This document shows positions 3,805-26,635 of a DNA stretch of 27,380 bases, piece after piece. The stretch lies in the IMG/VR virus record IMGVR_UViG_3300042397_003267, positions 1-27,380 of that record. One strand, 5' to 3'. Each line of letters opens with the position of its first letter. Position 1 is the stretch's first letter. The notes beneath the pieces were generated by a model, which did no database searches, was not told where the DNA came from, and saw only the letters and a list, made by a program, of their open reading frames with translations. A program made the translations under genes and the position numbers. The DNA comes from a virus.

Positions 3805-3819
3805 AACCCTAGATTCCCT

Positions 3820-4056: not shown

Positions 4057-4076
4057 CTTGAGCTCAATCGGTTGAA

Positions 4077-4096
4077 AAAATCCCTCTGCGGATTTT
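4077..4096. terminator. Short A/T-flanked hairpin, possible terminator
   Basis: AAAATCC, loop CTCTGC, GGATTTT: a perfect 7-base-pair stem preceded by an A run and ending in T's, in the gap between the ribbon-helix-helix gene and the head block. The stem is short and mostly A/T, so termination would be weak. It marks the boundary between the accessory and structural blocks. Confidence 0.4.
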
Positions 4097-4104
4097 GCGC
4101 AGGA

Positions 4105-4111
4105 GTTGACG
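4105..4111 (+). promoter_or_regulatory. GTTGACG start-site element, copy 1
   Basis: GTTGACG ends 16 bases before ATG 4128. The intervening bases also contain GGGAGGT, a strong Shine-Dalgarno. This is the first of six identical copies in front of structural genes. Confidence 0.55.
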
Positions 4112-4127
4112 CTGGGGGGAGGTGGGT

Positions 4128-4850
4128 ATGAACCACATGACCCGCCTCAAAGAACTTTCCAGTCGAGCCAACGAGTTTGCACGGGGGGATCGTGCGATCC
4201 CGGCTATGCGCCACATTCTGAAGGGTCTTGGCGATGCTCCTCTTGCCTTGCAGGGCGCTGAAGGAACAGCGGTCCCTGCTCTTCGCGGTAACTATCAAGG
4301 GGTGCGTAAGGCTCTTAATAAGTTCTGGGAAACACCTCACACGCAGCAGGAGGCCGTAGCGGCAGGCAAGGCCACTAGGAGTTGGGCGGCTGGCGAGATT
4401 CGTGATTACAGGCATTTCAGGAAGAGCGCACTCAAGGATTCCAATAGTCCCGAATGGATGAGGACTTCGCTTTCCGCTTCCCTTCGACTCAAGGAACTTT
4501 CCCGCAAGTGTGAGTTCGGTCTCTTCACGACCAACAAGCCCAAATATAACGAGGGGGGCCAGTTCGAGGGGATGGACAGGAGCCTCAATCCCGTAGGAAT
4601 TGCTGCTGGGGCCGCTGGTCTCGGTGCGTCCGGTCTCGGTGCCGCCGCCGGCCATAAGGCCATCATGAACCGCTATGGGCAGGATGGTGTTGGTGCAAAG
4701 CAAGCCTACAAGGCCGCCGCCGGTGATGCTCTTTCGGCCGCCAAGGGTGGTATCTCCTCGGGGGCTTCCGCCCTGGGCAAGAACATCCCACGCGGTGGAT
4801 TCGGATCCAAGGTGCGCGGCCTGCTGGCCTCCCTAGCCAAGCTCCGCTAA
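4128..4850 (+). CDS. Virion-associated protein of unknown function, Ala/Gly-rich
   Basis: This 240-residue protein opens the head block. I chose ATG 4128 because GGAGGT lies 5 bases before it; the frame also has a GTG at 4122 and an ATG at 4137. Residues 150-175 (NPVGIAAGAAGLGASGLGAAAG) are Gly/Ala-rich and hydrophobic. The C-terminal 70 residues are also Ala/Gly-rich with Lys/Arg and end in LLASLAKLR. The peptide RLKELSSRANEF near the start recurs as RLKELSRKCEF around residue 120 and in neighbouring proteins. The position before the prohead protease suggests a minor head, internal or DNA-ejection protein, but I recognise no family. The next gene starts 3 bases after its stop. Confidence 0.65.
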   Translation: MNHMTRLKELSSRANEFARGDRAIPAMRHILKGLGDAPLALQGAEGTAVPALRGNYQGVRKALNKFWETPHTQQEAVAAGKATRSWAAGEIRDYRHFRKSALKDSNSPEWMRTSLSASLRLKELSRKCEFGLFTTNKPKYNEGGQFEGMDRSLNPVGIAAGAAGLGASGLGAAAGHKAIMNRYGQDGVGAKQAYKAAAGDALSAAKGGISSGASALGKNIPRGGFGSKVRGLLASLAKLR

Positions 4851-4853
4851 GCC

Positions 4854-5144
4854 ATGCCAGACAATCGCCCAAGGAATTCGATGGGTCAGTATGAGACTCC
4901 GCAAGGAGGTCCCTCCACGGGGGCCTTTCAAGCGGCCTACAACCCAGCCGTGATCGAGCAGGAGAACCGCCGCCGCGCCACCATCCTAGCCGCCGTGCGA
5001 AGGATCAAGGGGGTCGAGCAGACTGTCCCCAACGACACGCCAGGCTCCTCCACGATGATGTCGTTCAAGGAACGCCTCAAGGAACTGGCTCGACGCGCAA
5101 GATCCGAGCCAACATCAGGGAGCTTCAAAGCAAAAAGTCTATGA
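4854..5144 (+). CDS. Small head-block protein, unknown
   Basis: This 96-residue basic protein is unrecognised. The first 35 residues are Pro/Gly/Gln-rich and look unstructured. Residues 35-60 (a helix with NRRRATILAAVRRIKG) and 68-85 (SFKERLKELARRARSEP) look helical and positively charged. The second helix repeats the RLKELS-x-R pattern seen in the preceding protein. The start ATG lies 3 bases after the previous stop, so translation is probably coupled. The next gene starts 116 bases further on. Possible roles are a minor head protein or an internal scaffold-binding protein. The sequence supports only its reality as a short operon member, not a function. Confidence 0.55.
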   Translation: MPDNRPRNSMGQYETPQGGPSTGAFQAAYNPAVIEQENRRRATILAAVRRIKGVEQTVPNDTPGSSTMMSFKERLKELARRARSEPTSGSFKAKSL

Positions 5145-5238
5145 AACACTGAAAAAACGCCCGTGGAGCCGAGGACTGTTTGCGCAGGGAATACCGGCGC
5201 ATCGGATCAAGTAGGCCTCCCCGGGCCATTTCTCTTCC
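5145..5238. other. Intergenic gap before the prohead protease
   Basis: The 116 bases between the small head protein and the protease are the longest non-coding stretch in the window. I see no sigma-70 promoter, no strong terminator and no short ORF with a start signal. Its last bases hold the GTTGACG element at 5239-5245. Confidence 0.5.
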
Positions 5239-5245
5239 GTTGACG
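5239..5245 (+). promoter_or_regulatory. GTTGACG start-site element, copy 2
   Basis: GTTGACG ends 15 bases before ATG 5261. The bases between form a small dyad, ATGCC-ATGA-GGCAT (5249-5262), whose right arm includes the start codon. Shine-Dalgarno pairing is weak here (GAGG too close to the ATG). Confidence 0.55.
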
Positions 5246-5260
5246 GGAATGCCATGAGGC

Positions 5261-6514
5261 ATGAAGGAATTCTCCAGTCAGCACCTTGAACTCTCCGGCC
5301 GCGTCGATCCCGTCAATGGGGTCATTCACGGGGTCTCCGTCATCACCAGCGGCGTCACCGCCCGTGGCCACAACCTCGAGGTGGACATGAAGACGCTCCG
5401 CCAACTCCTGGAATGCGGCCAGAAGATGGGCACGGTACCCGTCAAATGGAACCACCGCTCCGGTGCCGATGCAGTCGCCGGTTATATCGACAACTTCCGG
5501 ATCGAGGGGGAGAAGCTCCTGGGTGACTGGCACCTGCTCAAAAGCCATTCCCAATACGAGCAGGCCATGGAAATGGCCGCCCGCATGCCCAAGAACGTGG
5601 GCCTCTCCGCCGCGTTCATGGGCGATGATGAAAAGCTCTCCGGTGGCAAGATGGCGGCCCGATGCCATGAGCTCATTTCCATCGATGTCGTGGCAACTCC
5701 AGCGGCCAACCCGACCGGCCTTTTCGAGGCCAAAGTTGACAACGCAACCATGAAGGAAACGCTTATGAGCAACCAGAACACAACCCAGCCTGAAGGTGCC
5801 GCCCCATCGCTTGCCGATGTGATGGCCGCCATCTCCACCATCAACGAGCGCCTCGACAAGCAGGATGCTCTCAACGCGCAACTGCACCAGCAGGAGAGCG
5901 AGAACGATGACCTCACCATCGAGGATCTACTGACTCTGACTCCCGAACAGGTCAGCCAACTCGTCGCCGAGGGACATCTCTCCGAGGAGGATGCCGCCGG
6001 TATCGCGGCACTCCAGGCCGAATACACCGCCGGTGACGAGGAAGGTTCCGAGGCCAACGAAGAGTCCGAGGCCGGATCCTCCGAAGGGGGTGAGGCAGGG
6101 GTCGGAGCAGAAGCCGCCGCTGGCGAGTTCTCCGCTCTCCAGAAGTCCGTCCGCGAGCTTTCCGCACGCTTCGAGCGCGAGGATGCCAGCCGCGAGAACG
6201 CCGAGATCGAGCATCATTTCTCAGTCATCGAGGGGAACCTCAAGGAACTCTCCAGCGAGAATGCTTCCCTCAAGGAGCTCAACGATCGCCTCTCCACGCA
6301 GAACGAGGCCATGCGCCACGCCCTGAAGACCGGCATCCGTCCCCTGGCTTTCTCCGCCGAAGGCGAGGCCGTCACCGGCACGCCCGGCAAAGTCCACGAG
6401 TTCACCAGCCTGGTGAAGAAGTACCGCGAGCTGGGCAAGACCGATGCCGAGGCCATCCGCTTCGCGCACAAGGAGAACCCCGAGGCCCACGCCGATTACA
6501 TCCGCAATCTCTAA
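5261..6514 (+). CDS. Prohead protease fused to scaffold domain
   Basis: This 417-residue protein combines a capsid maturation serine protease (about residues 1-160) with an acidic scaffold (about 169-417). The protease would trim the scaffold and release itself during head assembly. Candidate catalytic residues are H65 in VKWNHRSGAD and S116 in NVGLSAAF, with H136 or D142 as the third member. The segment around 140-150 (SIDVVATPAANPTG) is typical of prohead proteases of the S78/U35 type. The scaffold half is Glu/Ala-rich, with an acidic linker around 250-280 and a coiled-coil-like part (290-360). A strong internal start at 5765 probably produces the scaffold alone. The genes after it (decoration, then capsid) give the standard head order. 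The exact peptidase family is not certain. Confidence 0.85.
   Translation: MKEFSSQHLELSGRVDPVNGVIHGVSVITSGVTARGHNLEVDMKTLRQLLECGQKMGTVPVKWNHRSGADAVAGYIDNFRIEGEKLLGDWHLLKSHSQYEQAMEMAARMPKNVGLSAAFMGDDEKLSGGKMAARCHELISIDVVATPAANPTGLFEAKVDNATMKETLMSNQNTTQPEGAAPSLADVMAAISTINERLDKQDALNAQLHQQESENDDLTIEDLLTLTPEQVSQLVAEGHLSEEDAAGIAALQAEYTAGDEEGSEANEESEAGSSEGGEAGVGAEAAAGEFSALQKSVRELSARFEREDASRENAEIEHHFSVIEGNLKELSSENASLKELNDRLSTQNEAMRHALKTGIRPLAFSAEGEAVTGTPGKVHEFTSLVKKYRELGKTDAEAIRFAHKENPEAHADYIRNL
5765..6514 (+). CDS. Internal in-frame scaffold product within the protease gene
   Basis: ATG 5765 (codon 169 of the protease gene) is preceded by AAGGA (5753-5757) with 7 bases between, which is a better Shine-Dalgarno than the one at the main start. 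Initiation here would give a 249-residue acidic scaffold that begins MSNQNTTQP just after the protease domain ends. The same nested arrangement is well known in lambda (C and Nu3) and other phages. An ATG at 5750 is the nearby alternative. This is inference from the RBS and the domain border; nothing else proves expression. Confidence 0.55.
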   Translation: MSNQNTTQPEGAAPSLADVMAAISTINERLDKQDALNAQLHQQESENDDLTIEDLLTLTPEQVSQLVAEGHLSEEDAAGIAALQAEYTAGDEEGSEANEESEAGSSEGGEAGVGAEAAAGEFSALQKSVRELSARFEREDASRENAEIEHHFSVIEGNLKELSSENASLKELNDRLSTQNEAMRHALKTGIRPLAFSAEGEAVTGTPGKVHEFTSLVKKYRELGKTDAEAIRFAHKENPEAHADYIRNL

Positions 6515-6535
6515 TCCAACAACCCACCAATCATC

Positions 6536-6892
6536 ATGAACTTCAACAACGTCGTCAGCGGAAACGCTGCATCTGATCTCTCGGGCAAGGAAGACCTCGC
6601 CCTCAAGCTCACCGCCACCGGGTTCGACCTGGCAGGCGCCACCGATCGGGTCATCGGAACCCTCCTTCGCGGAGCGGTCGCCGGTAAGGCCGTCGATGTC
6701 TTCCTCAACAAAATCGGCCTCCGCTATGTGGCCGTCGGCAATGCCACCGCCATCGCCATCGGCGACGAGCTGGAGCAGGCCGCTGGGGGAACCTTCGTCA
6801 AGAAAACCACCGGCGCGGCGGTCGCCCTCGCTTTCGAGGCGGCTCCCGCAAACTCCAACAACGGCGGCAAGATCCGCGCCATCCTGCTCTAA
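6536..6892 (+). CDS. Head decoration (cement) protein candidate
   Basis: This 118-residue, Gly/Ala/Val-rich beta-type protein sits directly between the protease-scaffold and the major capsid protein, the usual place for a capsid decoration protein. Residues 33-60 (AGATDRVIGTLLRGAVAGKAVDV) and 60-105 (RYVAVGNATAIAIGDELEQA, GAAVALAFEAA) show short alternating strands like those of small trimeric decoration proteins. The reading is by position and composition, not by a recognised motif. The leader (6515-6535) is an unstructured A/C-rich run with no Shine-Dalgarno and no GTTGACG element, which is odd for a protein expected in hundreds of copies. Confidence 0.65.
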   Translation: MNFNNVVSGNAASDLSGKEDLALKLTATGFDLAGATDRVIGTLLRGAVAGKAVDVFLNKIGLRYVAVGNATAIAIGDELEQAAGGTFVKKTTGAAVALAFEAAPANSNNGGKIRAILL

Positions 6893-6915
6893 CACTCAAC
6901 CGAGGATAACACACC

Positions 6916-7872
6916 ATGTACAATACAACCGATTCCGTCCCACGTCAGGACATCAGCACCCTCCTCATGGAGGCTGTCCACCAGGATCAGCACTACATCG
7001 CGCAGAACGTCCTGCCAATCTACGGCAGCGAGCGCGAGGTGGGCCGCTATCCCAAGTTCCGCATCGGCAAGGGCGAACTCCTCAAGAAGGAGAGCCAGAA
7101 GCGCAACTCGACCGGCACCTACAACGAAAGCGACGAGAGCTTCGAGTGGGACAGCTACCAGACCGAGGAATATGGTCACGAGAAGCGTGTCGATGACAAG
7201 GTCTCCAAGCAGATGCGCGATTTCTTCGACGCACAGATGGTGACCGCCAAGTTCTGCATGAACAAGGTGATGTTGGATTACGAGGTCCAGGCCGCTTCCG
7301 CGATCATGGATCCCTCCACCTTCGCCAATGCCAACGGAACGGTGGCCTACACCGAGGCCAACCTCAACACCATCGATCTCCCGCAGGACATCAACGCCAC
7401 GCTCGAGAAGATGACACTCATCGGAGAGTCCCCGAACACGATGATCCTGTCCCTCCAGGTCTTCAACCGCCTCAAGAGGAGCAAGCTGCTTCAGACCTAC
7501 CTCTACGGCTTCCTCAACACCACGCAGGGCGGTGCCAACATCACCACCCAGACGATCTCGGCCGCCTTCGGCATCCCGAACATCGTCATCGCCAAGAAGT
7601 CCATCGACACCGCCATCAAGGGCAAGACCGCCGTGGCTCCTGTCTGGGGCAACGACTACATCTGGATCGGCGACGTCCAGGGTGGCGACTTCATGGCGGG
7701 TGGCGCAGGCCGCACCATCATCTGGGACGCGGACAGCGAGGGTGGTCTCTTCACCACCGATCAGTACCGCGACGAGGCTCGTCGTGGCGACAAGATCCGC
7801 GTGCGCTCCAACCGCACCGTCAAGATCATCAACCCCAACGCTGGATACCTCATCGGAACCCAGTGGGCCTAA
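6916..7872 (+). CDS. Major capsid protein
   Basis: This 318-residue protein would be the HK97-fold shell protein. Features seen: an N-terminal helix (QDISTLLMEAVHQ), a segment YIAQNVLPIYGSEREVGRYPKF (26-48), an E-loop-like charged stretch (50-85), a helix-rich spine region (95-135, with DYEVQAASAIMDPSTFA) and the P-domain/A-domain part from 150 to the end. The VLP...Y.K pattern near the N-terminus and the run ending NPNAGYLIGTQWA are typical of one large capsid family. The start ATG has GAGGAT 8 bases upstream. The gene follows the protease and decoration genes and is followed by a hairpin terminator. G+C content is the highest in the window, consistent with strong expression. Confidence 0.88.
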   Translation: MYNTTDSVPRQDISTLLMEAVHQDQHYIAQNVLPIYGSEREVGRYPKFRIGKGELLKKESQKRNSTGTYNESDESFEWDSYQTEEYGHEKRVDDKVSKQMRDFFDAQMVTAKFCMNKVMLDYEVQAASAIMDPSTFANANGTVAYTEANLNTIDLPQDINATLEKMTLIGESPNTMILSLQVFNRLKRSKLLQTYLYGFLNTTQGGANITTQTISAAFGIPNIVIAKKSIDTAIKGKTAVAPVWGNDYIWIGDVQGGDFMAGGAGRTIIWDADSEGGLFTTDQYRDEARRGDKIRVRSNRTVKIINPNAGYLIGTQWA

Positions 7873-7893
7873 AACCTTGTGTGAGGGCACATC

Positions 7894-7930
7894 AAACTCC
7901 CCGATCCGGCCAGTCCGGGTCGGGGAGTTT
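7894..7930 (+). terminator. Strong hairpin after the capsid gene, overlapping the kinase RBS
   Basis: AAACTCCCCGA (7894-7904) pairs perfectly with TCGGGGAGTTT (7920-7930) over 11 base pairs, with a 15-base loop and a T-rich run immediately after. This has the form of a rho-independent terminator. The right arm contains GGGGAG (7922-7927), which is the only Shine-Dalgarno for the kinase gene, so the folded RNA would also hide that site. Confidence 0.8.
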
Positions 7931-7934
7931 TCGT

Positions 7935-8483
7935 TTGGTGGCGCTGGCCGGATATGCCGGTAGCGGCAAAAGCGAGGCGGCTCGACATCTGGTCGAGCGC
8001 CATCATTTCGTGCGGCTGCGCTACGCCGCTCCCATGAAGCGGATGCTCATGACCCTCCTGGTGGAAAGCGGGATCGGTCCCATCACCGCGCTGGAAATGA
8101 TCGACGGGAAGCTGAAGGAAACGCCTTCCCCCGTCCTTTCCGGTCATTCCCCGCGCTTCGCCCTGCAAACCCTCGGTACAGAGTGGGGTCGCAACATCAT
8201 GGCTGCCGACTTCTGGCGGCGCATCCTCATGGGGCGCGTGGAAGCCGAGATCGCCAAGGGGAATTCCGTGGTCATTGATGATGTGCGTTTCTTCTGCGAG
8301 GCGCGTGAGCTTCGGGCCCGGGGATTCACGCTCTGGAGGATCCTGCGGCCCGGGGTCGAACGGGGGGAGCATTCCAGCGAGGATCAGTCGTTCCCCGTCG
8401 ATCATGTCATCCATAACGATCAGTCGCTTGCCCAACTCCATGCCAGCGTGGAGGAAAAGTTGACCTCCTCCCATGGAGTATGA
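7935..8483 (+). CDS. Phage deoxynucleoside monophosphate kinase-like P-loop protein
   Basis: This 182-residue protein probably phosphorylates dNMPs to dNDPs to feed phage DNA synthesis. From the chosen start, the P-loop GYAGSGKS lies at residues 6-13. It is followed by a helix and the RYAAPMKRML segment that many phage dNMP kinases share. Next come the central part LQTLGTEWGRN, the IDDVRF segment (Walker-B-like) and the C-terminal pattern HSSEDQSF...DHVIHNDQSLAQLHASVEE. The frame is open back to a GTG at 7863 inside the capsid gene. I place the start at TTG 7935 (or GTG 7938), because GGGGAG lies 7 bases before it and the domain begins there. The stop overlaps the next start (ATGA). A kinase among structural genes is unusual. 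Confidence 0.82.
   Translation: MVALAGYAGSGKSEAARHLVERHHFVRLRYAAPMKRMLMTLLVESGIGPITALEMIDGKLKETPSPVLSGHSPRFALQTLGTEWGRNIMAADFWRRILMGRVEAEIAKGNSVVIDDVRFFCEARELRARGFTLWRILRPGVERGEHSSEDQSFPVDHVIHNDQSLAQLHASVEEKLTSSHGV
8459..8465 (+). promoter_or_regulatory. GTTGACC variant of the start-site element
   Basis: GTTGACC lies inside the last codons of the kinase gene and ends 14 bases before ATG 8480. CTCC-CAT-GGAG between them can form a small hairpin. It differs by one base from the six exact copies. Confidence 0.35.
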
Positions 8484-8833
8484 ACTTCGATGACTCATTC
8501 TCCCAGGGGGATGCCGCCGCCTTTGACGAAATGGCCTCCCTTGTCCTTCTGGAAGGGCGTTCCGTCCGCGCCATCATTTCCCCCCTGAGCGGATACACCA
8601 CCGAAAGCGATGGCACGGGCGGGTTCTCCAGGGCAGAGGGGGCCAAGATCGAAGTCCTCTCTAGCGACATGGCCGCCGCCCAGAACTGGTCGGGGCCTCG
8701 CGTCGGCATGCTGGTCACCATCCCCACCACCCCTCCGCAGAACTACCGCGTCACGGGGGTCCGCAACAACGGCTTCACCACCACACTCACCTGCGGCTCC
8801 ACATCCGGAACCGCTCCACGCGCCCAATTCTAA
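8480..8833 (+). CDS. Head-tail connector/head completion protein candidate
   Basis: This 117-residue protein starts in an ATGA overlap with the kinase. The first 25 residues form an acidic helix (DDSFSQGDAAAFDEMASL). The rest is beta-rich, with VTIPTTPPQNYRVTGVRNNGFTTTLTCG near the end. Small proteins of this size, with a short helical lead and a beta barrel, placed after the capsid gene and before the tail terminator, are usually head-tail connectors of the lambda gpFII or HK97 gp7/gp10 type. No diagnostic motif is visible, so the role is by position. Its stop shares one base with the next start (TAATG), showing tight coupling. Confidence 0.55.
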   Translation: MNFDDSFSQGDAAAFDEMASLVLLEGRSVRAIISPLSGYTTESDGTGGFSRAEGAKIEVLSSDMAAAQNWSGPRVGMLVTIPTTPPQNYRVTGVRNNGFTTTLTCGSTSGTAPRAQF

Positions 8834-9222
8834 TGAATGTCCGCTCCCTGATCGAAGTCGAAGTGGCCTCCGCCCTCTCCTCCAGCAAGGTCATTACCTG
8901 CCCAGCCCTGCCGGGGTCCGGCGACGGGGTCCGGCCGGATCGCTATGTCTCGGTCGTGGCCACGGAAGCCGAGCATCGGGGGGATGCTCATCTGGTGACC
9001 TTGGAATTCCGCATCGTGGCCCCTGCGGCCGAACCAATCGACTCCATGAGGGAGACGACGGACGCGGTCTATCTCTGGGCCACCGGAGAGGATTCGCCCC
9101 TCAAGGAATATGATGCCAACGGGCTTGAGATTTTCGGTCATTCACCAGCCAATCTCACAAGCGAGGTGCGCGATTTTCAGAGGGCCGAGATCCTGGAGTT
9201 CAAGGTGGGAGCCGCCGCCTAG
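8833..9222 (+). CDS. Tail terminator/minor tail protein candidate
   Basis: This 129-residue protein follows the connector with a TAATG overlap and precedes the tube genes, the slot of the lambda gpU/gpZ-type tail terminator. The N-terminal helix (NVRSLIEVEVASALSSSKV) is followed by beta segments (RYVSVVATEAEHRGDAHLVTLEFRIVAPA) and a helix with a conserved-looking AVYLWATG. The C-terminal half ends in RAEILEFKVGAAA. This helix-beta-helix pattern fits tail terminators, but no sequence motif confirms it. The stop TAG is immediately followed by TTGACA, part of a variant start-site element. Confidence 0.5.
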   Translation: MNVRSLIEVEVASALSSSKVITCPALPGSGDGVRPDRYVSVVATEAEHRGDAHLVTLEFRIVAPAAEPIDSMRETTDAVYLWATGEDSPLKEYDANGLEIFGHSPANLTSEVRDFQRAEILEFKVGAAA

Positions 9223-9228
9223 TTGACA
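9222..9228 (+). promoter_or_regulatory. GTTGACA variant of the start-site element
   Basis: GTTGACA begins with the last base of the preceding TAG stop and ends 18 bases before ATG 9247. GGGGGTAT lies between them. It has one base changed and a longer spacing than the exact copies. Confidence 0.35.
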
Positions 9229-9246
9229 TTCCGCCAAGGGGGTATC

Positions 9247-9591
9247 ATGAGCATCGCAAACAAATCAATCAACATGACCGGTTTTATTTTTGGAACCGGA
9301 GCCACAGACCTTCTTCAGGTTTCGGTTGAAAAATCCTACGCCACCCAGATCGAGATCGTCGGTGGCACGGGTATCCTCGATGACATCGTCTATGGGGCTG
9401 AGGAGCATAAAATCACCGCCACAAAGGTGAACGGCACCGGGGCCCTTCCTGCTCTTGGAACTAATTTCACCGCCGGTGGGGTAACTGGGTATGTCACCAA
9501 AACCTCCCTCGTTAAGAGTAACGAGGATGTGGAGAAAGTCCAAATCGAGGCCATCGGCTTCCCGGAAATTCCAACGACTGCCACTCCCTAA
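9247..9591 (+). CDS. Tail tube-like protein, first of a tandem pair
   Basis: This 114-residue protein starts MSIANKSINMTG. I prefer ATG 9247, because the TTG at 9223 is part of the GTTGACA element and AAGGGGG sits just before this ATG. It is beta-rich and Gly/Thr-rich with almost no charge clusters. Its C-terminal part (SNEDVEKVQIEAIGF) aligns by eye with SNQDFAKVTVTGKGI in the next protein. Two adjacent small beta proteins of this type, after a tail terminator and before a chaperone and tape measure gene, fit a tail tube protein plus a divergent copy. The second copy may cap or decorate the tube. Family not recognised. Confidence 0.5.
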   Translation: MSIANKSINMTGFIFGTGATDLLQVSVEKSYATQIEIVGGTGILDDIVYGAEEHKITATKVNGTGALPALGTNFTAGGVTGYVTKTSLVKSNEDVEKVQIEAIGFPEIPTTATP

Positions 9592-9627
9592 TAGGAGTGT
9601 TCACGGCAACTACTAACTCATAAAAAT

Positions 9628-9951
9628 ATGGCACTTCAATCATTCAAGGGGAAAGCAGTCGGAGCCTGCGGCGTGACGGTCGCTGGAATCACCAATGTCA
9701 CCAATTTCACCGATACTGAGGAATATGGCAATATTGCCCGTGCCAAGAACTGTGATGGTGACGTCAAGGCCGTCTTCATGTCCAAGGGCACTTACTCCTC
9801 ACAGGTGAGCGGTTATACCGCCACCATTGCCGCGCCTGCTCTCGGCGGGGCCATCACCGGTGTGGATGGATCCCAGCGGATCATGTCCTCAACGCTTGAG
9901 GCCTCCAACCAAGACTTCGCCAAGGTGACGGTCACCGGCAAGGGTATCTAA
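9628..9951 (+). CDS. Tail tube-like protein, second of a tandem pair
   Basis: This 107-residue protein, MALQSFKGKAVGACGVTVAG, is beta-rich with a central TEEYGNIARAKNCDGDVKAVF stretch and the ending SNQDFAKVTVTGKGI. The ending is similar to that of the gene just upstream. The N-terminal 'GxxxxxxGxTVAGITNVTNFTD' and 'EYGNIARAKNCDGD' segments are the kind seen in small tube proteins of siphophages. It lacks a Shine-Dalgarno: the leader is an A/T- and A/C-rich run (9605-9627) with an AGGAG about 30 bases away. It may be the main tube subunit because it is the copy next to the chaperone and tape measure genes, but that is inference. Confidence 0.55.
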   Translation: MALQSFKGKAVGACGVTVAGITNVTNFTDTEEYGNIARAKNCDGDVKAVFMSKGTYSSQVSGYTATIAAPALGGAITGVDGSQRIMSSTLEASNQDFAKVTVTGKGI

Positions 9952-9954
9952 TCC

Positions 9955-10758
9955 TTGTCGGATCACCACTACATCTTCGACGAGCGCTTTGCGGAGAGCT
10001 TCCTGCACTCCGCAAATCCTCATTCTGTCTTTGGTATAAGCCTCAAGCCCTTTTCCAACTGGCATCGGCTTCAGCTCGAATGGATTGATTCCAAGGTTCT
10101 CCTCGGCGGCGCTCAAAAGTGGGATCTCTATCTGGCGGCAAGAATCTGCTCGACCGAGTATCCTCATGTCGCTCCCAATCCGGGCAGGGGGAACCTTCAC
10201 AACTCCCTCTGGCATCTCCGCCATTGGCACCGGAATCCCAGCAAGGAATTAAAGGCCTTCTACGCCTACCTCGAGGATTTTTCGGCACCTCCCAAGCTCT
10301 GGGGAGGAAAGGGATCCTCCATGAAAAAGCTCTCCGAGGCTTACGAGGAACTTCACCGGATCACCGGAAATCCCTCCCACCTTCAAGGCGCGCGCGAGGC
10401 AGCCTATCAGGCATTCCTCCAGGAGAACCAAGACACGCAACTGGATGATACCCTCTCCCAGGTGGCCTATTACTGCAAGGCGACCGGCCGTCCGCCCCTC
10501 GAGGCCTGGAATATGCCGATCGGGGAACTCGCCTGGATGAATATCGCCTTTGCCAAGCTGGATGGCGGCAAGATCGACATCTGGACGCCGATGGATGAGG
10601 AACACTTCCAGGCGCATCTGCTCACCCGCCAGCAGAAGATCGCCGAGATCGCCAAGGAAATCGAACGGGATCAGCCCGAGGTCCCCTCTCGCCTCTCGAT
10701 GCCGTTGGCCGCCGTGAAGTATTGGCAGCAGGTCGTGGATCGCACCTCGAAGGGTTGA
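9955..10758 (+). CDS. Probable tail assembly chaperone (by position), unknown family
   Basis: This 267-residue protein lies between the tube genes and the tape measure gene, where siphophages encode tail assembly chaperones. It starts at TTG 9955 (SDHHYIFDERF...), since no ATG in frame precedes a conserved-looking part; AAGGGTAT lies upstream. It is mostly helical with many Trp residues (NSLWHLRHWHRNPSKEL, EAWNMPIGELAWMNIAFAKLDG). The C-terminal third (helix LLTRQQKIAEIAKEIERDQPE) looks solvent-exposed. I searched the last codons for an X XXY YYZ slippery site that would make a frameshifted longer form and saw none. The stop TGA overlaps the GTTGACG element of the tape measure gene. Confidence 0.5.
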   Translation: MSDHHYIFDERFAESFLHSANPHSVFGISLKPFSNWHRLQLEWIDSKVLLGGAQKWDLYLAARICSTEYPHVAPNPGRGNLHNSLWHLRHWHRNPSKELKAFYAYLEDFSAPPKLWGGKGSSMKKLSEAYEELHRITGNPSHLQGAREAAYQAFLQENQDTQLDDTLSQVAYYCKATGRPPLEAWNMPIGELAWMNIAFAKLDGGKIDIWTPMDEEHFQAHLLTRQQKIAEIAKEIERDQPEVPSRLSMPLAAVKYWQQVVDRTSKG

Positions 10759-10760
10759 CG
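10754..10760 (+). promoter_or_regulatory. GTTGACG start-site element, copy 3
   Basis: GTTGACG overlaps the stop codon of the chaperone-like gene (TGA at 10756-10758) and ends 15 bases before ATG 10776 of the tape measure gene. GGGGTATCAG lies between. Confidence 0.55.
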
Positions 10761-10775
10761 CTTTGGGGTATCAGT

Positions 10776-14123: not shown

Positions 14124-14124
14124 C

Positions 14125-17169: not shown

Positions 17170-17366
17170 GCACCGCAGACCAATACGGGGCGAACAAAGC
17201 CGCCCGAGCGCGGGCCCGTATTGCGGAGGAGGTGGCGACCGCCGCCGTCCCATTGCTTGAACCGCTGTTCCCCTACACGGTTGTGGCTCCACCAATCCAA
17301 TACTTCAGGCAATTCGTCAAAAATGATGATCCTCCCACCGATGATTTGCCGCCGATGGGGTGGTAG
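17166..17366 (+). CDS. Small tail-region protein, unknown
   Basis: This 66-residue protein starts at ATG 17166, overlapping the previous stop (ATGA), and ends at TAG 17364-17366, directly followed by TTGACG. The first half is an Ala/Arg-rich helix (ADQYGANKAARARARIAEEVATAAVPLL). The second half is Pro-rich and aromatic (PLFPYTVVAPPIQYFRQF) and ends DDLPPMGW. The frame is also open upstream through the previous gene, but that part is a shadow. It is short, but the coupling on one side and the element on the other support it as a real gene. A role as linker or chaperone for the following fibre is possible but not shown. Confidence 0.5.
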   Translation: MSTADQYGANKAARARARIAEEVATAAVPLLEPLFPYTVVAPPIQYFRQFVKNDDPPTDDLPPMGW

Positions 17367-17372
17367 TTGACG
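17366..17372 (+). promoter_or_regulatory. GTTGACG start-site element, copy 4
   Basis: GTTGACG begins with the last base of a TAG stop and ends 15 bases before ATG 17388. GACC-GAATA-GGTC between them can form a small hairpin that touches the start codon. Confidence 0.55.
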
Positions 17373-17387
17373 CCGACCGAATAGGTC

Positions 17388-19997: not shown

Positions 19998-20001
19998 CGC
20001 C

Positions 20002-21000: not shown

Positions 21001-21002
21001 TC

Positions 21003-21009
21003 GTTGACG
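21003..21009 (+). promoter_or_regulatory. GTTGACG start-site element, copy 5
   Basis: GTTGACG lies three bases after the previous TAA (20998-21000) and ends 15 bases before ATG 21025. GGAGGGGATGGG lies between, giving a fair Shine-Dalgarno. An ATG at 21019 is in frame too. Confidence 0.55.
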
Positions 21010-21024
21010 GCGGAGGGGATGGGT

Positions 21025-21744
21025 ATGCCTGTTCCTGTCATTTCCTCCACGCAGAGCGTCCTGTCTGTTGCTCAATGGCAGGATTTCTCATTTAACGCCG
21101 CCGCCACAGGCAACCCTACAGAGTGGTCAATCTCCCCCGTCGCTCCGGCGGGAATGACATTTTCTCCCGCAACGGGGGTTATCAGCGGCCCTCCGACAAT
21201 TCCAGGGGTTTTCAATTTCACACTTCGGGCCAAAAATTCCGATGGTTGGAGCGATCCCAAGGAGTTCACCTTGGCGTGTTATTACTCGGATGGGGATCAC
21301 TCAAAATTCCAACTCAACATCGATGTGGATATTGATACGCGGATTGTCAGCGGTTGGCCGCCCGACTTTTCCGCCAAGTACGGCGATGACCTTGTGTTGA
21401 GGGTTTCCTTCAAAGAGGGAAGTTCCGTTCTCAATCTGGACTTCAATTCACTCAAGTTCGGGCTCAAGGAACGGGATGGCGACCCTCTCATTCTCAACTC
21501 CCAATCCTGGAGAAAGGTATCCACCGGAATCACCGGAACGACATTCTTTCTGCTCTACATTCCCGTCACGGGGCCGGTGCTGGCTGGCATCCTTGCTGAT
21601 TATGAACAGGATGCAGGAACCTTTTTCACGGGTATTGCAGAGATCGAATGGATCGAGCGGAATGCCAGGAACACGGTCGGGCCGGACTATGTGAGGCTCA
21701 CCTCGCGGACCTTCCCGTTCCGCATAACCAGGGATCTCATCTAA
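21025..21744 (+). CDS. Virion protein with putative Ig (He_PIG-like) domain and attachment-like C-terminus
   Basis: This 239-residue protein has two parts. Residues 5-85 (with WSISPVAPAGMTFSPATGV, ISGPPTIPGVFNFTLRAKNSDG) are a clear putative-Ig domain of the type found in cell-surface and phage adhesins. Residues about 105-239 (DDLVLRVSFKEGSSVLNLDF, LNSQSWRKVSTGITGTTFF, AEIEWIERN) resemble the N-terminal domain of the spike protein at 24974, including LSNSWVKTGIGT and MEIEWVVGSYRY, so the two share a module. That module resembles baseplate-attachment domains (BppU-type) in layout. ATG 21025 is chosen over 21019 because the element-to-start spacing is then 15, as for the other copies. It is probably a connector between the tail and the adhesins that follow. 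Confidence 0.65.
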   Translation: MPVPVISSTQSVLSVAQWQDFSFNAAATGNPTEWSISPVAPAGMTFSPATGVISGPPTIPGVFNFTLRAKNSDGWSDPKEFTLACYYSDGDHSKFQLNIDVDIDTRIVSGWPPDFSAKYGDDLVLRVSFKEGSSVLNLDFNSLKFGLKERDGDPLILNSQSWRKVSTGITGTTFFLLYIPVTGPVLAGILADYEQDAGTFFTGIAEIEWIERNARNTVGPDYVRLTSRTFPFRITRDLI

Positions 21745-21748
21745 GGTT

Positions 21749-24493
21749 ATGGCAGCCTCCCAGACGATATCGGCTTTTTCCACGATCTCCTCGAGGCCTC
21801 TCGCGGAATCACCCTTCTCGGTGACTGCCCCCACGGCCTCCTCGGGTCTGCCTGTCACCCTCTCGGTCAAGAGTGGGCCTGCGACAATCTCTGGCAATAT
21901 CGTCACTCTCACGGGGGAGGGGGTGGTGACCCTGGCTGCCAACCAATCGGGAAATGGACAATATGCGGCTGCGGCCGAAATGCGGACTGTTTTTGCGGTG
22001 ACGAACCTAAAAACATATTCATGGCCTCAGATCGAGCCCTTGCTTCGAGGGGATTCCTCTCAACGAGCAAAGCGCTGGGCATGGGGGTTTCTGGGCAAGG
22101 ATGGTACAGGGACTGATGCGTGGATCAAGTGCATCGGAGGGGTCTTTTGGATGACTGAGGGGGCGTCAACAACTCGCGTGGTCAAAAGCACGGATTTTAA
22201 TCAGATCGAGTTCCTGGCGAACGATTGGGTTCTATTCACTCCCTCAACAACCGCGCCAACATTCCAATGGAGGGGAATTGAGTCATTTATCACAATAAAA
22301 TCCATCAGCCTGCAGTCTGACGGGAGGATCCTGATCCAGGGATCAACCAACCCCAATGCAGCGATCCAACTTTCCCTGGGTAGTCGTACAATGAGCATTG
22401 TGGCTGATGCCAATGGTGCATGGCAGGCGCTCGAAGCGGTCCCTACCGGAAACCTCCTCATCAAGGCCACTTTCAATGGGAAAACCGATGCGGCAAGTCT
22501 TGTGATCCCAAGCGTGGGAAGTCCCTCCAGCCGTAAAATTGTTGATTATGCCATAATCCAAGGTGGGCGGATAAAAGTTGGTGGATATGTTGAAGACCTC
22601 CAGGAATTTGGATCCAACTCAAATGGGTGGGCCTCAGTAAGCTATACGCCTCCACCTGGTAATGATAACGCAGGGATTCTTTCTTCGATCCTGTTCCCCG
22701 CGTTGAATTCCGGCCAATGGGAAGCCTCAATCTTTAACGCATCAGGAAAGCCCGTTATTGGGGAATGGCGGCTTACAGTAGAGGAAAAGCCGCCCGTCCC
22801 CTTCCTCGCTGATGTTGCCGTGAGCTCGATCACTCGCTCGGGAACGACGGCCACGATCACGACATCCACTCCTCATGGCGGGAGCGTCGGTCGGATCGTC
22901 AATCTCCAGGGGGCCTCTCAGTCTGAGTATAACGGAAACTTCGTCGTGAGGACTGTCCCCTCGACGACCTCATTCACGGTCACGGTCTCGGGCACACCCT
23001 CAACTCCCGCCACGGGCACCATTGTCTGCGGCATGGGGATGTACGCTAATCTGAATCCTGTAATCAACGAAATCTACATCAGCGCTCCTATTCCTGAAAG
23101 TGTGCCAACGGGGATGAGACTCACTCACTTGTCCGGTGAAGAGAATCCCAATTCGAGGATTGTGATCAACGTGGGGGACAAATCTTACTCAGTTTACACC
23201 GATGCAGTCGGAAAATGGGGTCTGGATGTGCTGGTTCCCGAAGGAGTCAACATTGTGGTCACTATTACCTCAAATGGCACCACTTCCACCTTGGGAGTCA
23301 TTGGCTATCCTATCGCTACTCCCAACTCAGCAATAAGCATCACTTCTGTTGAGCGCCTCTATGGCAAAATCAATGTTGAGGGCTTCGCCAACCCTGGAGC
23401 AAGTATTACTCTGACAGTTGGTGGGGCTACCTTCACACAAACTGCCTCGCCGGATGGAAGCTTCGTTTTCAGCATCGATGACTCATCACCCACGGCCGAT
23501 GTTTCGATAACAGCAACGGATGGGGTCAGCTCAACTTCTGTTACCGTCGGTGCGCCTAGCGGCGGCAGTGGGGGCTCCCTCGGCGGCAACGGAACTGGCG
23601 TTGGGGGTGGCGGAACTGGTGGCGGGGGCGGCAATGGAGGTGAGATCGTGGACGATGGCGGCAGTGGCAATGGGGGCGGAAGCAATGGCGGCGGTGGGTT
23701 CGGCGGTGGCGGTGGAACCGGAGGTGGAGGCGGCGGTGGTGGTGGTGGTGGTGGTGGGGGTAGCGGCGGCGTCCCCTCCTGCGGCGCTCCATCACTTCAA
23801 ATCAATGGTCAACCTTTCGATTCTTGCATGCCTAACTCCACGGCCGCCAGCGGTAGTGCCTCTTCCCTTATTGTGGGAACAGTCAAGGTTCAAGGTTGCC
23901 CGGATGTTACCTATTGGGTGTCTGTCCCTGGAAAGAAGGGACCTGTCCTTGCAAGGAATGGCGATACGATCGATTGGCAGAAGGTTGTGCCATTCACCGG
24001 TGGCTCCTCGTTGCCCTTTAACGCAAGTATTTACGCACCACATGGTGGGGGTTCGAATTTCGCTAGCACCAACATCAATCTCCCTCAATTATGCGACCAA
24101 ATGCCATGCGGAGGTTGCGGAACTCTCAAGCAAGCCCTTGGATTAGGAGATAATGCAACTGCAATTGCTTTTTCTTGGTCTATTGCTGGCGGGTTAAGTA
24201 AGCAGGGGACAATGACTCTTGGCGATTGCGGTGCAACTAATTATGGAACTCAAGATGTTACAAGTCTGAGTCTTGGTCTAAGAGTATCCGGCATCCCTGA
24301 TGATTCCGTTCATGTAAATGAAATCTGTGAATTAACCATTAGCGCTGGTTCGCTTATGCCTGTGCCTGGGCCTCTTCAAAGGTTTCCCTGCTCTACGAAA
24401 ATCACATCTTTGCCAATTTCGCTTCCATTCACGACAGCTATATTTGGAACGAGCCCCCAAGGCCCCATTTCTGGAACTATTACCCTCTCGTGA
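21749..24493 (+). CDS. Glycine-rich fibre/adhesin with Ig-like repeats and cysteine-rich tip
   Basis: This 914-residue protein begins four bases after the previous stop. Residues 1-90 look like a small Ig-like domain (FSVTAPTASSGLPVTLSVKSGPATI). Bacterial Ig-like repeats of the 'G.ANPGA.I.L.VGG.T....A..DG.F.F' type occur at about 184-245, 450-515 and 529-604. A different beta domain lies at 358-427. Residues 604-675 are an almost pure Gly/Ser/Asn tract. The last 240 residues contain nine cysteines in several clusters (PSCGAPS, LCDQMPCGGCG, GDCGATN, NEICEL), probably a disulphide- or metal-stabilised tip. The tip-coding region (24120-24480) is clearly more A/T-rich than the rest (two sampled 60-base lines 43% and 50%), suggesting a swapped host-range module. 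The last bases overlap the following GTG (GTGA). Confidence 0.7.
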   Translation: MAASQTISAFSTISSRPLAESPFSVTAPTASSGLPVTLSVKSGPATISGNIVTLTGEGVVTLAANQSGNGQYAAAAEMRTVFAVTNLKTYSWPQIEPLLRGDSSQRAKRWAWGFLGKDGTGTDAWIKCIGGVFWMTEGASTTRVVKSTDFNQIEFLANDWVLFTPSTTAPTFQWRGIESFITIKSISLQSDGRILIQGSTNPNAAIQLSLGSRTMSIVADANGAWQALEAVPTGNLLIKATFNGKTDAASLVIPSVGSPSSRKIVDYAIIQGGRIKVGGYVEDLQEFGSNSNGWASVSYTPPPGNDNAGILSSILFPALNSGQWEASIFNASGKPVIGEWRLTVEEKPPVPFLADVAVSSITRSGTTATITTSTPHGGSVGRIVNLQGASQSEYNGNFVVRTVPSTTSFTVTVSGTPSTPATGTIVCGMGMYANLNPVINEIYISAPIPESVPTGMRLTHLSGEENPNSRIVINVGDKSYSVYTDAVGKWGLDVLVPEGVNIVVTITSNGTTSTLGVIGYPIATPNSAISITSVERLYGKINVEGFANPGASITLTVGGATFTQTASPDGSFVFSIDDSSPTADVSITATDGVSSTSVTVGAPSGGSGGSLGGNGTGVGGGGTGGGGGNGGEIVDDGGSGNGGGSNGGGGFGGGGGTGGGGGGGGGGGGGGSGGVPSCGAPSLQINGQPFDSCMPNSTAASGSASSLIVGTVKVQGCPDVTYWVSVPGKKGPVLARNGDTIDWQKVVPFTGGSSLPFNASIYAPHGGGSNFASTNINLPQLCDQMPCGGCGTLKQALGLGDNATAIAFSWSIAGGLSKQGTMTLGDCGATNYGTQDVTSLSLGLRVSGIPDDSVHVNEICELTISAGSLMPVPGPLQRFPCSTKITSLPISLPFTTAIFGTSPQGPISGTITLS
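23565..23774 (+). repeat. Glycine-coding GGN tract with GGT microsatellite
   Basis: This run of GGN codons encodes the poly-glycine part of the fibre. At its 3' end are seven exact, in-frame GGT units (23735-23755) flanked by GGC and GGG. Slippage in steps of three bases would change glycine count without breaking the frame. The reverse strand of this tract reads as a His/Pro-rich frame, which is only a shadow. Confidence 0.75.
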
Positions 24494-24912
24494 GTTGTAG
24501 ATACGCAACCCCAATCTCTGACAATTCCAATGCCTGTGGGCTTGGTATGTATGGGGGCTATCCAAGTAACGGGGTTTGCAATCGTTGTGTGGAGAAGGGC
24601 GAAAACACGCGGGATTTTGCAGCCGCTCAGAAGGCTCTGCTGACTTCCACCCCCCAGCACCCATCACTCCCCCAGATGGCGGCCTCCTTTGCCGGGAGCA
24701 TGGTCGGCTGGGCCAAGGGAGGCTTCCAAGTGACCGACGAGGAGACACTGGCCGAACGTCTTGCAATCTGCAAAGGCTGCGAGTTTTGGGATCAGTCTGG
24801 CTATGGGGGAACTGGAAGGTGCCAGAACTGCGGCTGCTCCACATGGGGCCAATTGCGAATGGCAACCAAGAAATGCCCCATTGAAAAGTGGGGTCCAGTC
24901 ACTCCCTCGTAG
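24490..24912 (+). CDS. Cysteine-rich zinc-ribbon-like protein
   Basis: This 140-residue protein starts at GTG 24490 in a GTGA overlap with the fibre gene. It has two cysteine groups. The first is C16 and C29-x2-C32 within CGLGMYGGYPSNGVCNRC. The second is CKGC, then CQNCGC, then KKCPIEKW in the C-terminal third (RLAICKGCEFWD...). The second group closely follows a pattern I know from small phage proteins, 'RLAICR.C......RC..CGC......KCPIGKW', presumably one zinc ribbon. The middle is Ala/Ser-rich. The function of that family is unknown to me. Placement between adhesin genes suggests a role in fibre maturation or a structural tip accessory. Confidence 0.7.
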   Translation: MSCRYATPISDNSNACGLGMYGGYPSNGVCNRCVEKGENTRDFAAAQKALLTSTPQHPSLPQMAASFAGSMVGWAKGGFQVTDEETLAERLAICKGCEFWDQSGYGGTGRCQNCGCSTWGQLRMATKKCPIEKWGPVTPS

Positions 24913-24950
24913 GTATAACCACATCTTTTTCTCAGAAGAGAAGATGGGTA

Positions 24951-24957
24951 GTTGACG
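24951..24957 (+). promoter_or_regulatory. GTTGACG start-site element, copy 6
   Basis: GTTGACG ends 16 bases before ATG 24974 in a 61-base gap between genes. CCCC-GGTAAT-GGGG between can form a small hairpin. The context GGTAGTTGACGCC is the same as at copy 4. Confidence 0.55.
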
Positions 24958-24973
24958 CCCCGGTAATGGGGGT

Positions 24974-26635
24974 ATGCAACTCTTTCTTTCCACGGAATCC
25001 CTGTCGAGGGTTGGATCCTCGGAAATTTCCTTCCGTCGCGGTGATGCGCTCCCGATCGAGGTGTCGTTTTTGGCTGATGGAAAGGTGACGGAGCTTCCGG
25101 CCTCCGCGGTAGGGCAACTGGCGATCAAGTCCACGCCGGACGGTGCATTCCTGGCGCTGTCCAATTCCTGGGTGAAAACCGGCATCGGCACGCAGGCCGT
25201 GTATGTCTTTGACCTCAACCTCAACACCCAAGAGCTGGCAACCGCCCTCGCCACCGCGAACTCCATCAGTGCTCTCATGGAAATCGAATGGGTGGTTGGG
25301 TCGTATCGCTACTCCTCCAATTCCATCCCCGTAATCATCAACGAAACGCTGATCGGCGGTGATACGCCTCCACCTGTCGAGACTATCGACCTGAAATCCA
25401 CCGAGCAGGAAGCCGTTGCGGGAACCGTGAATAACAGGTGGATGACGCCCTTGCGAACCCTGCAAGCCATCGTGGCGCGACTGGGAAACGCGGACAACAC
25501 GAGTGATGCAAACAAGCCGGTCTCCACCGCCACCGCCTCGGCGCTCGCTGGCAAGGCGAATACTTCTCATCAACACGTTATTGCCGATGTCACCGGTCTT
25601 CAAACCGCCCTCGATGGCAAGGCAAGCAGCATCCATACCCACCAGACTGGGAAAACAATATATGTCGATTCCGGCGTGGGCACCGACACGCGGACGGGGT
25701 TGAGCCAATACAGCATCAACATTCCGTTTGCTACCATCGCTGCCGCCGTGACCGCTTCAGCAATCGGTGATCTGATCTATGTCCGGGCAGGGAATCATCA
25801 GATATCCGGCACGATCAGCCTCAATGGGGAGGGAAATCTGTATTTCGAGCAAGGCACAACTGTAACTGTCGCCGCAAATGTCGTTGCCTTTAGCCTTACT
25901 GCCAATGAACCAAAAGCAATCGGTGGGTATGGAATATTCACCTTGTCTGGGACGGGTGGTCTATGGTCGCAAAGCGGCGGCAACACGACTCTCCAACAGG
26001 TTGCCATAGAGTTTGCTTCAATCACCAATCTGGCTGGCGCAGGAACGGTATTTGCCGCTGCATCAGGCATCCTTGTCATTAACAGCCGAGGAGTAGTGAC
26101 CGCACCTGCTTCCACCGTCGTAAGTGAAACTGGAACCAGCGGTCAGGTATTCTACCAAGTCTTGTTCACCTATTGCGGCAAGTTGTCGGACATGACGCAA
26201 GCCAACTCCACCATGCAACTTACTGCCCTATGCTGGACTGTGCAGATTTTTGGAACGGAAGGTTTAAGCATTGTTGGTGGGACAACGTCCTTACGAATTG
26301 AGAATCTAGTTGGTGGTGGAAATCCTGCTACCAAACTTGTTGTTTTCAAGTTTGCAAACGGAGATGCGACAACCAACAGCCATGTTTTCAGGGGTGGAAG
26401 GCTGATTGCCAATAGCACCAATCCTTGCATCACTTTCAACTCCACAACTGCAACCAACAAGGTTGTGAAGCTCATGGGGGACACCCAGCTAAATACTGGT
26501 GCAACAAACTGCATTGTTTCCGCTGATACACGGGATGTTTTCGTATCCAGCGCACACTCCAATGTTGCCGCAGATACCAATACAACCATTCGTCCAAGCG
26601 GCAATCTATCGGTTGATCCTTATTTCGCTTTTTAG
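24974..26635 (+). CDS. Tail spike with right-handed beta-helix
   Basis: This 553-residue protein is a likely receptor-binding spike. Residues 1-115 form the attachment-like domain shared with 21025 (FRRGDALPIEVSFL, SNSWVKTGIGT, MEIEWV). A linker follows. THQHV-type collar repeats come around 195-225 (SHQHVIADVTGLQTALDGKA, SIHTHQTGK), a classic phage fibre element. From about 228 a beta-helix begins with KTIYVDSGVGTDTRTG...IPFATIAAAV, the pattern of pectate-lyase-like spikes. It continues as short repeating strands to the end. No catalytic residues for a glycanase or lyase can be picked out by eye, so binding or enzymatic function is open. The start ATG is 16 bases after GTTGACG. Confidence 0.75.
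   Translation: MQLFLSTESLSRVGSSEISFRRGDALPIEVSFLADGKVTELPASAVGQLAIKSTPDGAFLALSNSWVKTGIGTQAVYVFDLNLNTQELATALATANSISALMEIEWVVGSYRYSSNSIPVIINETLIGGDTPPPVETIDLKSTEQEAVAGTVNNRWMTPLRTLQAIVARLGNADNTSDANKPVSTATASALAGKANTSHQHVIADVTGLQTALDGKASSIHTHQTGKTIYVDSGVGTDTRTGLSQYSINIPFATIAAAVTASAIGDLIYVRAGNHQISGTISLNGEGNLYFEQGTTVTVAANVVAFSLTANEPKAIGGYGIFTLSGTGGLWSQSGGNTTLQQVAIEFASITNLAGAGTVFAAASGILVINSRGVVTAPASTVVSETGTSGQVFYQVLFTYCGKLSDMTQANSTMQLTALCWTVQIFGTEGLSIVGGTTSLRIENLVGGGNPATKLVVFKFANGDATTNSHVFRGGRLIANSTNPCITFNSTTATNKVVKLMGDTQLNTGATNCIVSADTRDVFVSSAHSNVAADTNTTIRPSGNLSVDPYFAF

Follow-up and report, generated by a model that had tools for sequence, protein, structure and literature searches.

Start-associated sequences (SAS) of actinobacteriophages, known from cluster K mycobacteriophages (PMC3203893) and cluster EF Microbacterium phages (PMC7302621), are the closest known kind of element to the hexamer GTTGAC, which is described here from a 27,380-nucleotide (nt) stretch of viral DNA, IMG/VR record IMGVR_UViG_3300042397_003267 (positions 1 to 27,380; hereafter the window). 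GTTGAC is a real, phage-specific, start-associated element; it belongs to a lineage of viruses of Verrucomicrobiota bacteria and marks the starts of many of their genes. In the sections of these two papers that describe the motif, SAS are likewise short and non-palindromic, lie nearly always in one orientation upstream of many starts, mostly ATG, are conserved by gene family and are scarce in the hosts checked; a role in translation start was proposed there, with the function untested, and portions of later papers still describe it as unproven (PMC12699233, PMC11373665). A figure legend in the cluster K report mentions upstream stop codons inside the motif (PMC3203893), an arrangement also seen here. 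GTTGAC shares the single orientation, the place before ATG and the conservation by family. It differs in that SAS, as characterized in the same sections, are 13 bp long, typically lie 3-7 bp from the start and contain a Shine-Dalgarno core, whereas GTTGAC is 6 bp long, stands 14-19 nt and mostly 15-18 nt away, is not complementary to the anti-Shine-Dalgarno sequence, is followed by a spacer whose pairing with that sequence stays at composition level, and has an internal coding site. According to the same cluster K sections, SAS occupy the non-structural half of the genome, whereas GTTGAC precedes structural and some replication genes. The SAS consensus GGGATAGGAGCCC (13 bp, up to 2 mismatches) has two matches in the window, which is chance level (37 of 100 shuffles reach that number), and 27 across the 1.04 Mb of 19 related records, a count made with no shuffle control.

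Two other published motifs invite comparison. Cluster EC phage Quhwah, in the part of the report that treats it, carries 12 copies of an 18-bp motif 22-30 bp before starts and encodes a sigma factor (PMC7302621); this motif also lies further upstream than a ribosome-binding site, but it is longer, has another sequence and comes with that sigma factor. In the extended SAS of cluster K, the authors of the Adephagia study see putative SigA-like promoters, in the portion of the paper concerned (PMC11373665). That case is a warning that start-associated phage motifs can be promoters; it differs from the present one in having -35 and -10 hexamers, the latter being absent from GTTGAC sites. The Shine-Dalgarno sequence itself shares the near-fixed distance upstream of AUG, but GTTGAC does not complement CCUCC and is too distant from the AUG. 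No published description of the element was found in the literature searched, where most subscription journals fell outside coverage.

The first-pass annotation of the window had described a 7-mer, GTTGACG, before six structural genes. A renewed search returned the same six plus-strand copies (starting at 4105, 5239, 10754, 17366, 21003 and 24951), separated from the following ATG by 16, 15, 15, 15, 15 and 16 bases, and the sole minus-strand copy at 22164-22170; the two variants, GTTGACC at 8459 and GTTGACA at 9222, are also real. The motif thus stands but was drawn too long, the invariant core being the 6-mer GTTGAC with base 7 free, and "six structural genes" was too narrow, as in relatives the single-stranded DNA-binding protein (SSB) and a DnaQ-like exonuclease family also have it. 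The copy number of the 7-mer is only mildly unusual (7 against 3.2 expected, reached in 3 of 100 shuffles), whereas its placement before ATG is the telling feature: the chance that six of six lie 15 or 16 bases before ATG is ~2e-9 at the ATG frequency of the window, a post hoc figure in which the distance was taken from the same data. The 6-mer occurs ten times on the plus strand. Eight copies precede gene starts (Table 1), one at 5735 precedes in-frame internal ATGs of the gene at 5261, and one at 2171 has no ATG 8-29 nt downstream.

Table 1. Copies of GTTGAC in the window and associated features; fractions are the family members that have the element.
Feature	Position	Strand	Remarks
GTTGAC	4105..4110	+	17 nt before ATG 4128; 240-amino-acid gene; element in 3/6 of family
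GTTGAC	5239..5244	+	16 nt before ATG 5261; prohead protease-scaffold gene (likely); family 18/19
Predicted hairpin	5249..5262 (5249-5253 with 5258-5262)	+	pairs with A and U of start codon 5261
Protease-scaffold protein (likely)	5261..6514	+	modelled N-terminal beta-rich protease-like domain, disordered linker 145-181, coiled-coil C-terminal part
In-frame codons GTT GAC	5735..5740	+	linker of 5261-6514 gene; before in-frame ATGs 5750 and 5765
GTTGAC	8459..8464	+	15 nt before ATG 8480; family 11/14; inside end of open reading frame 7863-8483
GTTGAC	9222..9227	+	19 nt before ATG 9247
GTTGAC	10754..10759	+	16 nt before ATG 10776; long gene; family 11/11
GTTGAC	17366..17371	+	16 nt before ATG 17388; 869-amino-acid tail-region gene; family 10/13
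GTTGAC	21003..21008	+	16 nt before ATG 21025; Ig-domain gene; family 6/8
GTTGAC	24951..24956	+	17 nt before ATG 24974; gene matching tail fibre and minor tail families
tRNA-Met(CAT) in relatives	L031 17954-18027; L027 4892-4962; L061 11026-11102; others		near major head gene

A search with the head protein at 6916-7872 yielded 12 virus records and one contig (C67) of a Verrucomicrobiaceae metagenome-assembled genome, which may be misbinned. The 12 relatives and the window together hold 218 coding-strand copies of GTTGAC, 161 of them with ATG 15-18 nt downstream; distances of 10-14 and 19-22 nt account for 10 and 15 copies, and of 30 copies on the opposite strand three have ATG at 15-18 nt. The histogram of distances also has a lower second peak at 9 nt (20 copies) and small peaks near 22-24 nt, which are taken to stem partly from the internal site of the protease gene. 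A direct pattern search gave 4-18 matches per virus record in the main direction, at most one in the reverse direction and 0-2 for a reversed control. Five further relatives gave the same picture, and all 18 close virus records have the element.

Counted by genes over 19 records, GTTGAC lies 14-19 nt before ATG in 155 of 757 plus-strand genes and in none of 293 minus-strand genes. The genes came from a simple home-made caller and the starts of element genes were picked partly by the element, so these counts lean towards it; the raw distance histogram does not. The records are not independent, as G006, G009, G012 and G013 are closely related, and some are truncated at 20-kb boundaries, leaving 20 kb each of G004 and G013, 40 kb of G012 and 60 kb each of G009 and G011. 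Near-identical leaders were collapsed in the hairpin, pairing, terminator, open-start, internal-leader and -10 tests and for the base composition of sites; all were kept for the distance histogram, letter-order test, stop-codon overlap, gene counts, leader composition and one-mismatch counts.

Use of the element follows gene family. It precedes 11 of 11 tape-measure-like genes, 18 of 19 protease-scaffold genes, 14 of 15 members of a family of 81-amino-acid proteins, 7 of 8 SSB genes and 10 of 18 portal genes, but 0 of 19 major head protein genes and 0 of 19 of the head gene's upstream neighbours; single-family names were assigned by us from Pfam and PHROG lists. The long gene at 10776 is judged tape-measure-like by size and place, and the TGA within its element is the stop codon of the open reading frame 9955-10758. 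Such overlap is common: the upstream stop codon lies within the element in 23 of 112 cases, and in 59 of 112 the element starts from 5 nt before to 9 nt after the end of the upstream gene. In the family of the gene at 17388, two of the three members that are without the element at the usual distance have GTTGAC at 20 nt.

The word is strict. When 180 orderings of the same six letters were compared, only words overlapping GTTGAC came near it and the median was 0; ATG is the start codon at the peak, with no comparable peak for GTG, TTG or CTG. One-mismatch forms are mostly as common at control spacings, with small excesses for ATTGAC (15 vs 5), GTTTAC (8 vs 2) and GTTGGC (16 vs 9). Some lineages use variants such as TTTGACA and GGTGACA. 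C67 has TTTGAC or GTTGAC at the element place in seven genes, the next base being mostly A, and its commonest 5-mer there is TTGAC (7 of 32 plus-strand genes). GGTGACA-like words occur in L183, L188 and G235. In L183, many starts have a leader of the form TGACA-N-GGGGTGGGT-ATG, with variations, which gives the element a conserved G-rich second half.

More distant phages were reached through portal and protease alignments. GTTGAC, an overlapping word or a variant ranks first among the 6-mers lying 13-19 nt ahead of starts in 16 of 18 distant loci, of which two pairs are near-duplicates; the exceptions are L189 and L100 (57% portal), the latter with three GTTGAC copies only, two of them placed. 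Over 17 distant sources with a control, GTTGAC is followed by an ATG-started frame 94 times at 13-19 nt and 11 times at 23-29 nt. No GTTGAC sites were found in the eight phages with a distant lambda-type portal (of 46 such loci, L114-L159) that were counted as an outgroup. A prophage in the Verrucomicrobiota genome G235 gives a direct comparison with host DNA: two 20-kb stretches hold eight GTTGAC sites on one strand, including the internal protease site, and the neighbouring 20 kb of host flank (L194, with pectate lyase, histidine kinase and TonB receptor genes) holds zero. With 18 of 18 close records and nearly all distant relatives examined having the element, the label "phage-specific" from the first-pass annotation holds.

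The site inside the gene at 5261-6514 is the most informative in our view of initiation, and the gene likely encodes a prohead protease-scaffold fusion. The window protein matches no Pfam or PHROG family at E 0.001; 108 viral proteins match it at E values up to 0.001, several of them named capsid maturation or prohead protease. An AlphaFold2 model of moderate confidence (mean predicted local distance difference test score 65, predicted template-modelling score 0.32) has the T4 gp21 prohead protease as its best PDB match in Foldseek (E 6.8e-3), and the components of a nested gene appear to be present: protease domain, linker, coiled-coil scaffold and in-frame internal ATG. In phage lambda, the nested protease-scaffold gene C/Nu3 has two starts on one mRNA. 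By this likeness a scaffold protein is expected from an in-frame internal start inside the protease gene, and we propose that the linker codons GTT GAC and a following ATG form that start; 5765, of the two candidate ATGs, aligns with relatives. In contrast to C/Nu3, the internal start of this gene follows the element that also stands before other genes.

Linker codons GTT GAC with an in-frame internal ATG are present in 19 of 19 close records (C67 included) at the same alignment column, the distance to the ATG being 18 bases in six records, 24 in 12 and 27 in one; five of the 19 have a further in-frame ATG 9 bases after the codons. Thirteen of 15 distant protease homologues keep the codons with an in-frame ATG at 15-27 nt, making 32 of 34 homologues in all. 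Codon choice elsewhere does not favour the word, GTT GAC encoding just 55 of 921 Val-Asp pairs with the internal site included. The leaders of the internal start are open (mean -1.42, 15 distinct), and most simply a single mRNA would carry both starts, that of protease damped and that of scaffold open, each after a GTTGAC. Scaffold may instead come from a separate internal transcript, as in herpesvirus UL26.5.

The damping of the first start would come from a hairpin. The first-pass annotation had seen short hairpins between element and ATG at half of its eight sites; over the whole set stems do exceed plain shuffles, but a clear selected hairpin is found in one of 11 families. Leaders of the protease gene form a predicted hairpin in 13 of 13 distinct homologues, reaching into the AUG in nine and ending just before it in four. 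Its family mean is -8.16 kcal/mol (z -7.9, with 0 of 300 controls as stable). The hairpin covaries, its sequence changing between homologues, and for this gene that points to a transcribed spacer. SSB (z -2.3) and the 81-amino-acid family (z -1.6) give hints and the remaining tested families none. Since ten other families show no clear signal, the hairpin is specific to the protease gene and not part of the element. Over the whole set z is -4.6 to -4.8 against plain shuffles and -1.3 against half-swaps; position-matched controls, with GTTGAC and ATG included, give -2.5 to -2.8. Of 200 half-swaps 21 attain the stem score, as do 11 of 200 column shuffles. A general hairpin element was therefore rejected. 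In element genes as a set the leader is structured (z -3.9) and the beginning of the coding region is unusually open (z +5.65), a combination that fits a leaderless mRNA or a structured start element alike. Leaders with the element have a G+C content of 0.63 and an A content of 0.16, as against 0.49 and 0.26 in the same families without it.

Judged from sequence comparisons, GTTGAC, a start-associated element specific to this phage lineage, probably works at the mRNA level as a signal for translation initiation. The first-pass annotation had offered a translation-start element, a phage-specific promoter and a host start signal side by side; phage specificity is supported, the host signal is not, and translation is favoured over a promoter because of the internal start for scaffold, the hairpin that covaries in the spacer before the AUG, and the want of a -10-like stretch. 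The GUUGAC of the mRNA would stand mostly 15-18 nt before the AUG, upstream of the usual Shine-Dalgarno place, and would mark independent starts on the structural-gene strand, both of genes that follow another gene's stop codon and of the in-frame site inside the protease gene from which scaffold protein would be made. A putative sequence-specific reader of GUUGAC, which might be a phage protein or a ribosome altered by such a protein, would position ribosomes at the following AUG. The extra hairpin of the protease gene may hide or crowd its first AUG, which we infer would keep protease low relative to scaffold. A more specific form of this proposal is put forward tentatively: a dedicated Shine-Dalgarno-independent initiation system in which a phage factor acting in trans on GUUGAC would bring ribosomes, perhaps loaded with the phage's own initiator-like tRNA, to late and internal starts, word and reader having diverged together between lineages.

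Several results weigh against a translation signal or fit it poorly. Pairing of the spacer with the anti-Shine-Dalgarno sequence (CCUCC) is no better than composition predicts (z -0.2 for -14..-3; over -18..-1 the z score against shuffles is -3.4), and the 16S complement GTCAAC is absent from the two Verrucomicrobiota 16S genes looked at (L055, L056), where wobble matches to GTTGAC are scattered. The element lies more than 120 nt from the called upstream gene in 38 of 112 cases. Spacing at the internal site varies (15-27 nt), and the two most distant protease homologues are without that site. A GC-rich, structured leader is unusual for a start region, and terminators are enriched upstream of element genes, as detailed below, which fits a promoter better. 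Shine-Dalgarno words are about equally frequent before element genes (30 of 112) and other plus-strand genes (97 of 388). Pairing of GTTGAC with nearby mRNA was not found either: within 120 nt there are two copies of GTCAAC upstream and none downstream, against 0.9 expected.

An unlikely alternative is that GTTGAC is the single box of phage-specific promoters that host RNA polymerase recognises together with a phage factor. Transcription would start at the ATG or slightly upstream of it and give leaderless or nearly leaderless mRNAs from which the GC-rich leader is missing. The best point for this reading is that 10 of 126 element genes, compared with 2 of 511 other plus-strand genes, have the T-run of an intrinsic terminator starting 18-60 nt before the ATG (Fisher p 3e-6). 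The open coding start with its structured upstream region, the restriction of the peak to ATG, and the tRNA-Met(CAT), often initiator-like, of 15 of 19 records would also suit leaderless mRNAs, and TTGAC matches the first five bases of the -35 box TTGACA; the base after it is A in only 10% of sites. Against this stand the GC-rich leader and the near absence of anything resembling a -10 between box and ATG: a -10-like hexamer occurs in one of 127 element leaders at -18..-3. The first-pass annotation had also noted that no -10 box lies 16-18 bases downstream of the element, and none of the 127 leaders has such a hexamer at -3..+12. Among 508 other plus-strand genes, 30 have one in the former interval and 25 in the latter. 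Between -60 and -18 the figures are 8 of 127 and 50 of 508, and a -10 of the leaderless type (about -12 to -7 of the ATG) is found in one of 127 only. None of four sigma-70-like sites in 3800-23700 uses an element (the copy at 24951 lies outside the scanned range). A sigma-70 promoter was rejected, as the -10 is absent in the window scan and nearly absent in the 127 leaders. The protease hairpin begins a few nt after GTTGAC, so the RNA should start at or before that point, and the internal site has a spacing of 15-27 nt. No Pfam family of an RNA polymerase or sigma factor was found in the 92 of 94 G006 proteins scanned, and a crude motif search of other records gave no RNA polymerase either. 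Minus-strand genes, which have no element, are preceded by terminators as well (12 of 242, a share not significantly different, p 0.26). Minus-strand genes with a terminator T-run about 18-52 nt before the start and no GTTGAC were seen in G002, G005, G006, G012, G109 and G112.

Cleavage of polycistronic mRNA at GTTGAC by a sequence-specific endoribonuclease of phage or host, trimming it upstream of selected starts, would account for the strict 6-nt sequence, the position beside upstream stop codons and the structured leader with open coding start; it is improbable, as cutting at the internal site would destroy the protease message, and no candidate nuclease was identified. Still less probable are operator- or stoperator-like DNA sites of a phage repressor, oriented with transcription: the single orientation, the many intergenic copies and the lineage variants fit, but the distance to ATG is constrained and ATG-specific, and one copy is conserved within a coding sequence at a constant alignment column.

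Verrucomicrobiota genomes were screened as the likely host group; the protease profile matched four of 387. Tables of spacings in 96 genomes, read genome by genome and not summed, give similar counts at 15-17, 24-26 and 6-8 nt (78, 73 and 81 in G001; 194, 229 and 215 in G079), and a stricter pattern has no broad use in 387 genomes, with at most 13 matches in any one. A translation or transcription start signal of the host bacteria is therefore hardly credible, even though the relatives found in cells lie in Verrucomicrobiota genomes and the stricter pattern outnumbers its reversed control in a few of the genomes (such as G096, 13 vs 0), as these two screens and the empty prophage flank speak against it and a host-wide signal was rejected on the former.

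Little is known of the signals that take the place of Shine-Dalgarno sequences in many phages and in groups poor in such sequences; certain Verrucomicrobiota, including Akkermansia, are listed as scarce in Shine-Dalgarno sequences in the relevant part of one survey (PMC10783764). GTTGAC is a strict, short, phage-specific word with a natural test built in, namely the protease and scaffold starts within one gene. It would improve gene-start calls in an uncultivated phage group and provide a sequence tag for finding members.

The tRNA with anticodon CAT lies within a few kb of the head gene in the 15 records that have it. As criteria for an initiator tRNA, an unpaired 1-72, A11-U24 and a GGG/CCC anticodon stem were used. 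The first two were recognised by eye in several of these tRNAs, and L059 and L062 also have the GGG/CCC stem; the tRNA of C67 is without A11-U24. No tRNA-Met(CAT) was found in the window, G002, G003 or the fragment G013, although the element is present, so the tRNA does not seem to be required, and its role as a necessary partner of the element is not supported (window, G002 and G003). A counter-defence role of the tRNA is an alternative; phage tRNAs and anticodon nucleases are discussed in a portion of PMC10264068. An RNA ligase-like family (G006 1398-2012) is present in seven records, six of which have the tRNA-Met, the seventh being G013.

The window also encodes a C5 cytosine methylase, a PHROG major head protein (6916-7872), a deoxynucleoside monophosphate kinase and genes with tail matches; a search for known RNA families gave one match only, far below its gathering score. 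On the minus strand of G006 (L035), at about 90123-92059, a ThiF-like E1, a prokaryotic E2 family D protein and a small ubiquitin-like-looking protein lie side by side, a possible phage ubiquitin-like conjugation set assigned by eye. A short motif like LRELAARSERVVEF is common to 29 late proteins of several records (among them G006_007, 010, 017, 018 and 019, and the window product of 4128-4850) and is perhaps a capsid-targeting signal or a processing signal for the prohead protease.

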